15,930 nt of DNA from NCBI GenBank assembly GCA_016934645.1, contig JAFGSL010000041.1, positions 1 to 15,930 of the forward strand, given 5' to 3'. The notes below the pieces were generated by a model that worked only from the letters and a program-made list of their open reading frames with translations, was not told the origin of the DNA and did not search any database. The DNA is from Anaerolineae bacterium (GTDB lineage Bacteria > Chloroflexota > Anaerolineae > B4-G1 > SLSP01). A program made the position numbers and the translations under genes. Each line of letters begins with the position of its first letter. Within the stretch, counting starts at the first letter, position 1. Positions 4,596-6,957 of this stretch are shown here, in pieces.

Positions 4596-4743
4596 GCGAA
4601 TGAACGAATCTGCGAATTACGAATAGCGAATTGGATTTCCTGTGTCTTGCTTCTTGCATCATGATTCCTATCTTAATCCCAAAACACTAGCCAGACAAGC
4701 GAGTGGGCGAATCAGAATCAGCGAATTACGAATAGCGAATGGA
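4596..4743. repeat. Heptamer-type intergenic array (CGAAT words), two clusters
   Basis: Between the divergent lipoprotein and tgt genes the word cgaat starts at 4597, 4605, 4613, 4620 and 4627, and again at 4708, 4722, 4729 and 4736 (with agaat at 4714). The period is therefore 7-8 nt. The 20-mer gcgaattacgaatagcgaat is identical at 4612-4631 and 4721-4740. The intervening 80 nt show no repeat. I see no coding potential in the region. Confidence 0.8.
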
Positions 4744-4745
4744 GT

Positions 4746-4778
4746 ATCCAGCTTCGAGCATCCAGCAACCGGCATCCA
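4746..4778. repeat. 14-nt tandem repeat (ATCCAGC words)
   Basis: atccagcttcgagc (4746-4759), atccagcaaccggc (4760-4773) and a partial atcca (4774-4778) form 2.4 units with an exact 14-nt period, twice the 7-nt period of the adjacent array. It lies immediately upstream of the predicted tgt promoter. Confidence 0.65.
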
Positions 4779-4779
4779 C

Positions 4780-4807
4780 TTGGCGATTAGTTTGGTTGTG
4801 GTATGAT
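4780..4807 (+). promoter_or_regulatory. Predicted promoter of tgt (extended -10)
   Basis: TTGGCG (4780-4785), a 16-bp spacer and TATGAT (4802-4807) preceded by TGG give an extended -10 promoter. Initiation near 4814 would leave a leader of about 20 nt containing GAGGAT (4819-4824), upstream of the ATG at 4834. The block TGTGGTATGAT resembles TGTGGTATACT found before two other operons. Confidence 0.5.
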
Positions 4808-4833
4808 GACGCACGTTTGAGGATGTGCACAGA

Positions 4834-5973
4834 ATGACGACGTTATTTACCTTCGATTTGTTAGCCACGGATGGATCGGCACGCGCGGGTGTCTTTCAAA
4901 CAGCCCACGGCCCGCTGCCAACTCCCATCTACGCGCCGGTCGGCACGCAGGCCACCGTCAAAGCAGTAACGCCGCAGCAGTTACAGGAGATCGGTGCGGT
5001 GCTCCTGCTGGCAAATACCTATCACCTGTATCTACGGCCCGGCGACGAACGTATCGCGGCCTTGGGTGGCCTGCACACCTTTATGGGCTGGGACGGTCCG
5101 CTGCTCACCGACTCCGGCGGCTTCCAGGTCTTCAGCCTGGGCGGCGGTCGCGGGCAGACGCCGCTGCGCACCATCGACGACGATGGCGTGACCTTCCGTT
5201 CGCACATCGACGGCCGGCAGCACCGCTTCACACCGGAGCGGGTCATTGAGATCGAGCAGAATCTCGGCGCCGACATCGCTATGGTGCTCGACGAATGTGC
5301 GCCCCCCACCGACTACGATTACAACGTCCGCGCACTTGCTCGCACGCACACCTGGGCCGAGAGATGCAAGACTGTCCACACTCGCGCCGATCAGGCCCTT
5401 TTCGGCATCGTGCAGGGCGGCATCTTCCCCGAACTACGCGCGCAAAGCGCCCACTTCCTAGTTGATCTGGACTTCCCTGGCTACGCCATCGGTGGCCTTT
5501 CAGTGGGTGAGACGAAAGCAGAAATGCACACCACGCTGGAAGCGACGACGCCGCTGCTGCCAGAACACAAACCACGTTACCTGATGGGCGTGGGCACGCC
5601 GGAGGATTTGGTCGAAGGTGTCGCGCGCGGCATCGATATCTTCGATTGCGTGCTGCCGACGCGAGTGGCACGCAATGGGCAGGCACTCCTGAAGACGGAA
5701 AAGCTGAATATGCGCAACGCACGCTTTGCCGACGATCCTACCCCGCTTGACGCGACCTGCGAATGCTACACCTGCCAGCACTTCAGCCGGGCCTACATCC
5801 GCCACTTATTCACCGCCAAGGAAATCTTGGGGGCCACGCTGCTGACCATCCACAACTTGTATACAATGCTGACCATCATCAAAGAATGTCGCGCGACGAT
5901 TCTGTCGGGCAAGTTCGCCGACTATCGTGTCGCGTTCTGGGAAGCACGGCAGGAAGTAAACGGTAGACAGTAG
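4834..5973 (+). CDS. tgt: tRNA-guanine(34) transglycosylase (queuine/preQ1 tRNA-ribosyltransferase)
   Basis: Exchanges guanine at the wobble position of tRNAs with GUN anticodons for a queuosine precursor (preQ1 in most bacteria, queuine in some salvage types). The 379-residue TIM-barrel protein shows every landmark: [10 protein letters not shown] (D93, equivalent of the general acid/base Asp), MVLDECAPP (D153), [34 protein letters not shown] (D271 as likely nucleophile), and a zinc site C309, C311, C314 plus H340. The GTG at 4825 is in frame, but GAGGA would abut it, so the ATG at 4834 fits better. The last codons (NGRQ, then TAG) lie inside an intergenic heptamer array, so the repeat supplies the end of the protein. 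map follows 68 nt downstream on the same strand, and a YhhQ-type precursor transporter is encoded on the other strand at 8037-8687. Confidence 0.97.
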
Positions 5974-6023
5974 ACGGAAGACGGGGAAAGAACCTGTCTA
6001 CCGTTTGCAGTCTACTGTCTACC
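5958..6023. repeat. Heptamer array forming nested perfect inverted repeats (GTAGAC words)
   Basis: Heptamers ggtagac, agtagac and ggaagac run in register at 5962-5982. The opposite-strand words tgtctac, cgtttgc, agtctac and tgtctac run at 5995-6022. Two alternative perfect hairpins result: 12 bp between 5958-5969 and 5995-6006, and 14 bp between 5962-5975 and 6010-6023. The array begins inside the 3' end of tgt and stops 8 nt before the map SD sequence. It might act as an mRNA 3'-end stabiliser, an attenuator, or simply be repetitive DNA. Confidence 0.85.
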
Positions 6024-6041
6024 ATATTAGAGAGGACAACA

Positions 6042-6902
6042 ATGCAAAAACGAAACGGTTTGAGTTGGCTACGAAGCACGAAGAGGAACGCTGACGAGAC
6101 AGCAAGGAGCGTCGCGCAGGCTTACGGGCGACGACCGAAGCAGACCCACAAACGTGAGGTCATCATCAAGAACGAAACGCAAATCACGGGCATCCGCAAA
6201 AGCTGTCATCTGACCCGTGACATCCTCGATGCCATGACCGACCGCATCGCCCCCGGCATCACCACCGAGCAGATCAACACGTGGGTGCATGAGATGACCC
6301 TCGCGCATGGGGCGACGCCTGCGCCGCTGAACTATCGCGGCTTTCCGAAGAGCGTCTGTACTTCGATCAACGAAGTCGTCTGCCACGGCATCCCCAGTCC
6401 CAGCCGGATTTTACAAGAAGGCGACATCCTCAATATCGATGTCACCTCCATTCTCGACGGCTATTATGGCGATTCCAGCCGTATGTTCTTGATCGGCGAA
6501 GTCGACCCGGAGGCACGCAAGCTGGTGCAGGTGACGCGCGAATGTATGGAGTTGGGCATCGCGCAGGTGAAACCGGGTAACCGCCTTGGCGACATAGGGC
6601 ACGCCATCCAGCAGCACGCCGAAAGTCATGGCTACTCCGTCGTGCGCGCTTTCGTAGGTCACGGGACGGGTATCAACTTCCACGAGGCTCCGGACGTACT
6701 GCACTACGGCGTGCCACACACCGGCGTGGAGTTAGTCCCTGGCATGGTATTCACCATCGAGCCGATGATCAACGTAGGCGATTACCAGGTACGAACGTTG
6801 AGTGATGGCTGGACCGCCGTGACTGCCGACGGATCACTCTCCGCCCAATGGGAACACACAGTTCTCGTCACCGAGGATGGCGTCGAGGTTCTGACCGCTT
6901 GA
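6042..6902 (+). CDS. map: Methionine aminopeptidase type I with basic N-terminal extension
   Basis: Removes the initiator methionine from nascent proteins. All five metal ligands of the pita-bread fold are present: D133 and D144 (NIDVTSILDGYYGDSS), H207 (GHGTGINFHE), E240 (FTIEPMI) and E271 (QWEHTVLVT). H115 in VCHGIP matches the substrate-contacting His. The catalytic domain begins near residue 40 (VIIKNETQITGIRK), so residues 1-38 are an extension rich in Arg/Lys (MQKRNGLSWLRSTKRN...GRRPKQTHKRE). The start is well supported: AGAGGAC lies about 6 nt upstream of the ATG and no alternative in-frame ATG/GTG occurs before M65. The extension resembles in position, not in sequence, the ribosome-interacting N-terminal extensions of other long-form bacterial MetAPs. 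Probably co-transcribed with tgt, and convergent with era. Confidence 0.96.
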   Translation: MQKRNGLSWLRSTKRNADETARSVAQAYGRRPKQTHKREVIIKNETQITGIRKSCHLTRDILDAMTDRIAPGITTEQINTWVHEMTLAHGATPAPLNYRGFPKSVCTSINEVVCHGIPSPSRILQEGDILNIDVTSILDGYYGDSSRMFLIGEVDPEARKLVQVTRECMELGIAQVKPGNRLGDIGHAIQQHAESHGYSVVRAFVGHGTGINFHEAPDVLHYGVPHTGVELVPGMVFTIEPMINVGDYQVRTLSDGWTAVTADGSLSAQWEHTVLVTEDGVEVLTA

Positions 6903-6957
6903 CGTGAAGCGTGATACGTGATGAATTGTCTATCACGTATCACGAGTCACGTATCAT
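6902..6957. repeat. Eight-heptamer array with perfect 13-bp hairpin between convergent map and era
   Basis: The whole gap between the map and era stop codons is one register of heptamers: acgtgaa, gcgtgat, acgtgat, a 7-nt spacer gaattgt, then ctatcac, gtatcac, gagtcac, gtatcat. The arms 6910-6922 and 6932-6944 are exact reverse complements around a 9-nt loop. Lying between convergent genes, the hairpin could serve as a bidirectional 3'-end structure, although it lacks flanking T-runs. Confidence 0.85.

Follow-up and report, generated by a model that had tools for sequence, protein, structure and literature searches.

Why should neighbouring spacers in one run of bacterial genes each be filled with short tandem repeats that share a period but differ in their words? 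The question is raised by a 15,930-nucleotide (nt) stretch from an Anaerolineae bacterium (contig JAFGSL010000041.1 of assembly GCA_016934645.1, positions 1 to 15,930; hereafter the window), in which an initial annotation, made from the letters of the DNA, described four intergenic patches of 7- or 14-nt period within 2.4 kb. Heptameric repeats of bacteria have been described for decades, yet there is, to our knowledge, no consensus on what they do. The answer that we tentatively favor, with slightly less than even confidence, is that the patches represent, at this locus, a class of heptamer-built intergenic repeats found throughout the genome; these would spread by copying from place to place within it, change length by slippage and be retained as RNA hairpins between cistrons. 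The sequences of the window and its relatives display a class with many hairpin-forming members, marked by its period, the recurrence of words at unlinked loci, inverted pairing, a purine-first order, overlap with stop codons and re-occupation of orthologous spacers. In its typical paired form, an element opens with a purine-rich array of heptamers, continues with a loop of about 13 nt and closes with the reverse-complement or near reverse-complement pyrimidine-rich array; it lies downstream of one gene's stop codon and upstream of the ribosome-binding site of the gene that follows.

Heptamer arrays and hairpins in the window

The patches occupy three successive spacers, which follow a lipoprotein gene and the genes that we take from their protein sequences to be tgt (queuine tRNA-ribosyltransferase, 4834..5973, + strand) and map (methionine aminopeptidase, 6042..6902, + strand); map is convergent with a presumed era (GTPase, 6957..7994, - strand). 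Gene names used below for the corresponding spacers of relatives are presumed in the same way. The best lag-7 scores are 11.5 in the lipoprotein-tgt spacer and 12.0 in the tgt-map spacer, neither equalled in 300 dinucleotide shuffles, and 9.0 in the map-era spacer, equalled in 1 of 300; lag-14 scores of 10.5, 9.0 and 10.0, respectively, were reached in 0 of 300 shuffles each. In the autocorrelation of the window's intergenic DNA, lag 14 ranks first (+4.9 standard deviations, sd) and lag 7 next (+3.5 sd). All four patches are thus present far above chance, and two of them are to be redrawn. The supposed single CGAAT patch at 4596-4743 does hold heptamer-type repeats, divided between two arrays of mixed 8- and 7-nt spacing: five CGAAT at 4596..4631 (+ strand; spacings 8, 8, 7, 7), purine-rich on that strand, and CGAGT, CGAAT, a gap and three CGAAT at 4700..4740 (+ strand; spacings 8, 14, 7, 7), with about 68 bp of other sequence between the arrays. 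The ATCCAGC patch at 4746..4778 (+ strand) is periodic as described, though as a degenerate heptamer array (ATCCAGC/TTCGAGC/ATCCAGC/AACCGGC/ATCCA) rather than with a 14-nt unit, and forms a pyrimidine-richer partner after the second CGAAT array. By reading, the order along this spacer is purine array, pyrimidine stretch, purine array, pyrimidine array; this order recurs, with longer arrays, in the equivalent spacer of a close relative (L046), where a CGAAT array is succeeded by one of AAATGG type and one of CCTGC type.

The other two patches are each one inverted pair, in which a heptamer array is followed by a short loop and the reverse-complement array. The 5' arm of the GTAGAC hairpin (5956..5982, + strand) reads GTAAAC GTAGAC GTAGAC GAAGAC in 7-nt steps, and its 3' arm (5996..6022, + strand), GTCTAC GTTTGC GTCTAC GTCTAC, lies just upstream of the map ribosome-binding site. 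The arms of the CGTGAT hairpin are CGTGAAG CGTGATA CGTGATG (6903..6923, + strand) and ATCACG TATCACG AGTCACG (6932..6951, + strand), and the hairpin leaves only a few of the 54 bp from map to era uncovered. Arrays had been said to stop at or just inside gene ends; more exactly, the tgt stop TAG (5971-5973) is one of the TAGs of the GTAGAC array itself, and the CGTGAT hairpin abuts the stop codon of map. Inverted-repeat scores are 15.5 (GTAGAC) and 16.0 (CGTGAT), as high in 0 of 60 shuffles, and the RNA folds predicted for the two are -39.7 and -31.1 kcal/mol on the + strand and -31.4 and -28.8 kcal/mol on the - strand. The initial annotation overlooked both the hairpin nature of these patches and the polarity of the arrays. 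No terminator-like site was found at either hairpin in a scan for intrinsic terminators with loops of 3-8 nt, the longer-looped GTAGAC hairpin being judged by reading, and Rfam gave no match at gathering score in the window.

Period 7 in the spacers of related genomes

Genome-wide tests were made on relatives of the window genome. A search with Tgt placed nearest to it L001 and L046 (91% identity, over 243 residues in L046), L003 (82%) and L002 (81%), all metagenome-assembled genomes (MAGs) labelled Chloroflexi, Chloroflexota or Anaerolineae. Their genomes are termed G001 (L001), G002 (L046), G003 (L002) and G004 (L003), and G340 and G341 are further congeners of G001. The stretches analyzed were mostly contig starts taken in order, plus Tgt loci. 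Five G001 stretches (L096-L100) chosen for CGAAT matches were excluded from segment counts, word recurrence, array pairing, spacer-orientation enrichment and the control for orthologous spacers, and were included in the autocorrelation and in the counts of non-periodic hairpins, neighboring units, vocabulary, position polarity, clamps and stop codons. Gene limits came from a simple hexamer-trained open reading frame caller, so that spacer ends are approximate.

Lag-7 self-match segments (score >=13) number 60 in 117 kb of spacers in G001, 27 in 40 kb in G002 and 21 in 26 kb in G003, where each of lags 4-6 and 10-13 gives 0-2 and lag 7 gives 0 in three shuffles. The spacers of G340 hold 33 in 45 kb, with 0-1 at lags 4-6 and 10-13. 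Coding DNA contains 16, 8 and 8 such segments in 908, 375 and 247 kb (G001, G002, G003), and per base they are far commoner in spacers. The spacer autocorrelation at lag 7 stands at +3.0, +4.0 and +2.2 sd in the same three genomes, and across 80 Tgt loci from several phyla (1.28 Mb) 31 lag-7 segments of score >=15 were counted against 0-2 at lags 4, 5, 10, 11 and 13. Heptamer arrays with many words are thus genome-wide in these relatives, whose spacers carry a sharp lag-7 excess well above the level of shuffled sequence; neither outcome that the initial annotation had named as its refutation was obtained there. Periods 8 and 9 occur as well, with 13, 4, 8 and 21 spacer segments of period 8 and 20, 1, 9 and 7 of period 9 in G001, G002, G003 and G340, respectively.

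Neighboring units within arrays are more alike than random (692 changes vs 869 expected), which points to slippage. A general 14-nt alternation of unit variants, suggested by the GTAGAC arrays, was considered and dropped for arrays as a whole on the same count, and lag 14 matches worse than lag 7. Slippage might also be the whole of the matter: arrays would grow in 7-nt steps from local seeds in unconstrained spacers, with nothing selected or copied. Among the long simple repeats of many bacteria, heptamers are the most frequent, and Mrazek et al. 2007 described their excess with a slippage model (both as cited in PMC4679880 and PMC4692102; here and below, statements on published work refer to excerpts of the papers). 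The likeness of neighboring units agrees with such an origin, as do the confinement of many arrays to one spacer, the gain or loss of arrays in some spacers and the uxaC-SDR spacer of G001, which resembles collapse to one unit. The recurrence of identical words at unlinked loci within a lineage-bound vocabulary, an apical clamp shared by GTAGAC hairpins, inverted pairing in purine-first order and re-occupied spacers, each described below, all argue the other way, and we consider a purely mutational origin rather unlikely.

Two observations concern periodic arrays of other kinds. Inverted arrays of period 9 (AGCAGATTN, AACGGATTN, CACAGAGNN) are found in relatives, usually with about 3 units per arm (e.g. 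L092 566-638, L094 19128-19200 and L103 10808-10871), and stand in for heptamer hairpins at some orthologous spacers. A MAG labelled Candidatus Omnitrophota (L079), of another phylum and with another vocabulary, has several short ACGCAGT/CGTACTG heptamer arrays in 20 kb.

Recurrence and lineage restriction of words

The words of the patches had been called unrelated, as products of a process that generates heptamer arrays. With word identity scored irrespective of rotation and strand, the 151 arrays of G001-G003 instead contain 206 unlinked pairs with identical words, compared with 10.9 +/- 3.3 for random spacer heptamers; distinct canonical words number 39, 31 and 21 in the three genomes. Individual words are abundant within lineages. 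CGAATNNCGAATNNCGAAT has 106, 25 and 212 matches in G001, G002 and G003 (controls 1, 0 and 0) and any match in 9 of 40 genomes, while GTAGACNGTAGACNGTAGAC has 60 in G001 (control 0) and occurs in only 3 of 301 genomes of the phylum, with 60, 6 and 1 matches, the genome with a single match also having 1 in the control. The window's GTAGAC hairpin finds at least 37-45 matches in each of four congeners, some of which are one place matched on both strands. In these hairpins an arm can contain as many as four exact heptads, and the variable position of the first arm is a purine. A 14-nt alternation is seen within GTAGAC arrays, where 35 of 39 adjacent spacer bases differ. An apical GGG...CCC clamp is common to 20 of 29 hairpins by a loose criterion (0.7% of random stretches show such a clamp).

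The lineage-bound abundance of words argues for copying within genomes more than for a fixed polymerase preference. Of 27 words from outside the family (counted once per locus), 7 belong to the family vocabulary of 80, where chance would give 10% (p=0.015), which hints weakly at a shared preference. The idea of a generating process is partly supported, in that many words follow one period; a word-blind generator alone is not supported, because unlinked recurrence, the lineage-bound GTAGAC family and its shared apical clamp require copying of word-bearing hairpins besides slippage.

Further GTAGAC arrays were seen in two other contexts. A phylum member outside the genus (G256, L304-L307) has 6 GTAGAC triple matches, and the four places read there show GTAGAC-/GTCTAC-type stretches in a short spacer after a stop codon, purine-first. 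At L152 2914-6474 in G001, three GTAGAC hairpins lie within 3.6 kb of one run of presumed oadG-like, oadB-like and panB-like genes, and the array supplies the stop TAG in at least the oadB-like and panB-like genes.

Hairpin architecture and purine-first order

Adjacent arrays (score >=10, gap <=80 bp, G001-G003) are related by reverse complementation in 29 of 39 pairs, compared with 6.7 +/- 2.4 expected on re-pairing, with a median loop of 13 nt. An inverted repeat reads in the same order on either strand, and that order is biased. The first arm has G over C in 33 vs 6 pairs (p=1.4e-5) and is purine-richer in 29 vs 9 (p=0.0017), and 25 of the 26 strongly biased pairs are purine-first. Among pairs scoring >=13 the purine-first count is 14 vs 5 (p=0.064) and that of G over C 16 vs 3. 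In G340, 6 of 7 lag-7 pairs are purine-first (all four strong ones) and 5 of 7 have G over C; for lag-9 pairs the purine-first fraction is 12/12 in G001-G003 and 1/2 in G340.

Position relative to genes follows the same order. In the mRNA sense, the purine content of 152 arrays in co-oriented spacers drops from stop to start (rho -0.53, p=1.5e-12), with purine and pyrimidine arrays at 43:14 in the first spacer half and 7:44 in the second. Spacers with a single array give 22:10 and 5:22, and purine content is flat in 518 array-free spacers. Arrays in convergent spacers are purine-rich in the sense of the nearest gene in 9 of 12 cases, and those in divergent spacers pyrimidine-rich in 12 of 14. 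Stop codons are contained in arrays in 40 of 1844 cases but start codons in only 5. Stop codons within the words are not favored as the cause of polarity, because GCAGGAT-type words, which have no stop in any frame or strand, are also purine-first in the pairs observed (L156, L165, L198; by reading).

The closest published counterpart of this placement bears on a possible G-quadruplex function. Rehm et al. 2015 described two heptamers, GGGAATC and GGGGA(C/T)T, from Xanthomonas and Nostoc PCC 7120. Often present in about four units, they lie on the coding strand where they are near stop codons and on the non-coding strand where they are near start codons, and in Xanthomonas 70-75 pairs are in convergent orientation, i.e. 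G-first (PMC4692102). The purine-rich words of our relatives share this position and strand preference, and a few are G-rich (GGGATTR in G340). However, each published heptamer is a single G-rich word, with a G-tract in every unit, read as a quadruplex, whereas many words are ordered here, including words without G runs: CGAAT, ATCCAGC and CGTGAT lack GGG, GTAGAC has it in the loop only, and the polarity persists in the 111 arrays without GGG or CCC (26:11 in the first half, 6:29 in the second, p=6e-6). That quadruplexes account for the arrays is accordingly very improbable.

Orthologous spacers in congeners

Nine spacers ("slots"), each with an array in one species, were deliberately followed to the orthologous spacers of congeners. 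Scores of >=8 at period 7, 8 or 9 were obtained in 15 of 19 comparators, compared with 30% of 828 control spacers (p=1.5e-5, comparators from one slot being non-independent); 14 score >=9 and 12 score >=10 (p=2.2e-4). By eye, 17 of the 19 count as occupied: the word type is kept in 9 and differs in 8, and two of these 17 score <8 (pgk-tpiA in G341 and oadB-panB in G340). Gain, loss and word switching are all seen among orthologous spacers. GTAGAC precedes map in four species (the window, G001, G340 and G341), in G341 after a different gene, for which recombination at the repeat is another reading. The map-era spacer, with CGTGAT in the window, has 8- or 9-nt repeats in three congeners. The E1-E2 spacer holds the GAGTAAR type in G001, G002 and G341 and GGGATTR in G340, and the oadB-panB spacer GTAGAC in G001 and G341 and a hairpin of 9-nt type in G340. 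In the pgk-tpiA spacer, compared by eye among 17 genomes including G001, repeats of heptad or octad type were recognized in 9; another 6 have plain hairpins there, and the remaining 2 have neither. A scripted score of >=10 flagged only G003 among the 16 comparators.

Word change at a slot also bears on the idea that each heptamer family is an iteron-like site for a DNA- or RNA-binding protein (a regulator, nucleoid protein or transposase), with inverted pairs as paired binding. In its favor, the spacer base of GTAGAC hairpins stays a purine in one arm and a pyrimidine in the opposite arm, with no covariation, as if the arms were read separately. The paired arrays of Geobacter metallireducens, three to five tandem repeats of 7-9 nt, intergenic and mostly in opposite-strand pairs as here, have been termed predicted binding sites of a global regulator (PMC2700814); they differ in having few classes and other words. 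One protein per word fits poorly both with the dozens of words in each genome and with the replacement of one word by another at a slot, which leaves protein binding an improbable general explanation.

Comparison with known repeats

The kind of repeat is already known, from the short tandemly repeated heptamers (STRR) of cyanobacteria, the Xanthomonas GGGAATC words and the Chloroflexus GATAGRA arrays; what appears to be new here is the word-independent polarity and the behavior of slots. We found no statement of either in searches of open-access papers, and subscription papers may contain one. The initial likening of the patches to STRR was apt. STRR are 7-bp tandem units of several words, intergenic and hairpin-forming, and lie for example between the co-transcribed hupS and hupL, where a role in stability or coupling has been suggested (PMC2670836). 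In the window and its relatives we likewise find tandem 7-bp units (besides some of 8 and 9 bp), a number of different words in each genome, intergenic position and intergenic hairpins, in 29 of the 39 adjacent pairs and in two of the window's three spacers. The Nostoc hypF-hypC spacer contains the repeat ATTGCGAATTGCGAATTG, of CGAATTG type and thus of the same word type as the window's CGAAT, with a core copied 79 times in the genome (PMC2408588). STRR differ in belonging to another phylum, and neither polarity independent of the word nor a change of word at slots is stated in the excerpts of these two papers. A query array of Nostoc type had no match among plasmids.

Other heptamer systems are more uniform. 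The TAACTGA repeats of Beggiatoaceae and others (MacGregor 2015) are intergenic direct repeats for which a translational role has been suggested, and differ in having one word, in being direct with very few exceptions (169 sets, with one inverted in the BOGUAY genome) and in lying mostly just upstream of starts (PMC4679880). In Chloroflexus aurantiacus, 22 satellites derive from (GATAGRA)n; these are, like ours, heptamer arrays of Chloroflexi with a purine at the variable position, but consist of one word, and hairpins, gene context and polarity are not mentioned in the excerpt (PMC6749651). An oligopurine excess has been reported in Nostoc, Chloroflexus, Roseiflexus and others (PMC4060949).

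The dispersal of short extragenic palindromes between genes, as in the GTAGAC family, is shared with repetitive extragenic palindromes (REP) and bacterial interspersed mosaic elements, and GTAG-type REP are reported from Chloroflexi (PMC3733652). The arrays might accordingly be REP or miniature inverted-repeat transposable elements (MITE) moved by a Y1 transposase, of the REP-associated tyrosine transposase (RAYT) type, or by another transposase. Each of four congeners has 2-4 Y1_Tnp genes, and an array appears to have been gained between ftsA and ftsZ in G001. However, REP stems are not tandem heptamers, and the terminal GTAG or CGTC tag of REP has no counterpart common to the words, GTAG being internal to one word and missing from the CGAAT, CGTGAT and GAGTAAR elements. 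No clear RAYT link emerged at the 6 of 11 Y1 places read, one of which has a lag-7 segment about 0.8 kb away (L312) and the other five none, and no target duplication was seen by eye at ftsA-ftsZ. Transposase-driven elements of this type are therefore quite improbable.

Proposed copying and slippage, and a possible role between genes

Under our tentative account, word-bearing hairpins would be copied within a genome, perhaps by ectopic gene conversion or a form of transposition, and their arrays lengthened or shortened in 7-nt steps by slippage. A copying mechanism is called for by the recurrence of words, the shared clamp and the lineage restriction. The oriented hairpin would then be kept in the intercistronic spacer as useful at the RNA level, possibly by making RNA polymerase pause or by protecting the end of the upstream mRNA, and hairpin, order and place would outweigh the word; a role of the RNA is suggested because the hairpin often persists where the word does not. 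As the hairpin closes, its 3' arm leaves a hybrid of RNA pyrimidines and DNA purines (rPy:dPu), the weaker kind, whichever strand is transcribed, which is a possible physical reason for the order.

Several observations weigh against this account. The CGAAT/ATCCAGC spacer between the lipoprotein gene and tgt has no strong hairpin (inverted-repeat score 6.5, as high in 42 of 60 shuffles), and no U-run was found after the window hairpins by the terminator scan or by reading. Some slots are sporadic: the spacer before ftsZ holds an array in G001 and none in 12 other genomes read, in some of which the preceding gene is not clearly ftsA; the uxaC-SDR spacer of G001 holds a single GTAGACGG unit; and the E1-E2 spacer is nearly absent in three family members. 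The enrichment of arrays in co-oriented spacers is not significant (68/691 vs 6/119 divergent and 7/105 convergent), and opposed spacer bases of GTAGAC hairpins do not covary (12 G.T, 9 A.C and 7 Watson-Crick; n=31). No copying enzyme was found among the Y1_Tnp genes sought in the four congeners (6 of 11 places read). Non-periodic hairpins of these genomes also lean purine-first, 174 vs 86 (44 of 72 with strong arms), so part of the polarity is general; the heptads are more strongly ordered (29/30 pooled vs 44/72, p=1.9e-4).

Polarity and slot behavior argue against any full explanation by quadruplexes, by a separate regulator for each word or by blind slippage alone. Word-independent polarity, together with spacers re-occupied under a change of word, defines the target of any function as an oriented hairpin between stop and start, and the function of such repeats thereby becomes easier to test. 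A broader proposal, possible though doubtful, is that purine-first heptad hairpins are a general, word-free operon punctuation across distant phyla, in which words are exchangeable and are overwritten by copies of other hairpins in that genome. Under selection would be the hairpin itself, the purine-then-pyrimidine order of its arms and its location between a stop codon and a ribosome-binding site; the quadruplex-based strand preference reported earlier would be a special case.

Other repeats in the window

Three further repeats were seen in the window. At 743-806, an inverted repeat (CCTTGCGAAGGTTT...AAACCTTCGCAAGGG) with a 32-nt middle scores 16.0, as high in 0 of 60 shuffles; because a similar palindrome sits in the spacer downstream of OTC in G341 (L324), the repeat resembles a dispersed element of REP type, though one that lacks heptamers. 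The palindrome GCGATTTNGAAATCGCGGCTAC occurs in unrelated spacers, at about 13250-13275 in the window and about 5745-5775 in L046. Finally, a 261-bp tandem repeat of 1.8 copies with 83% matches spans 14326-14805, within a gene at 13313-14992 (- strand) for a protein that looks secreted and has repeated domains and a LysM-like end.

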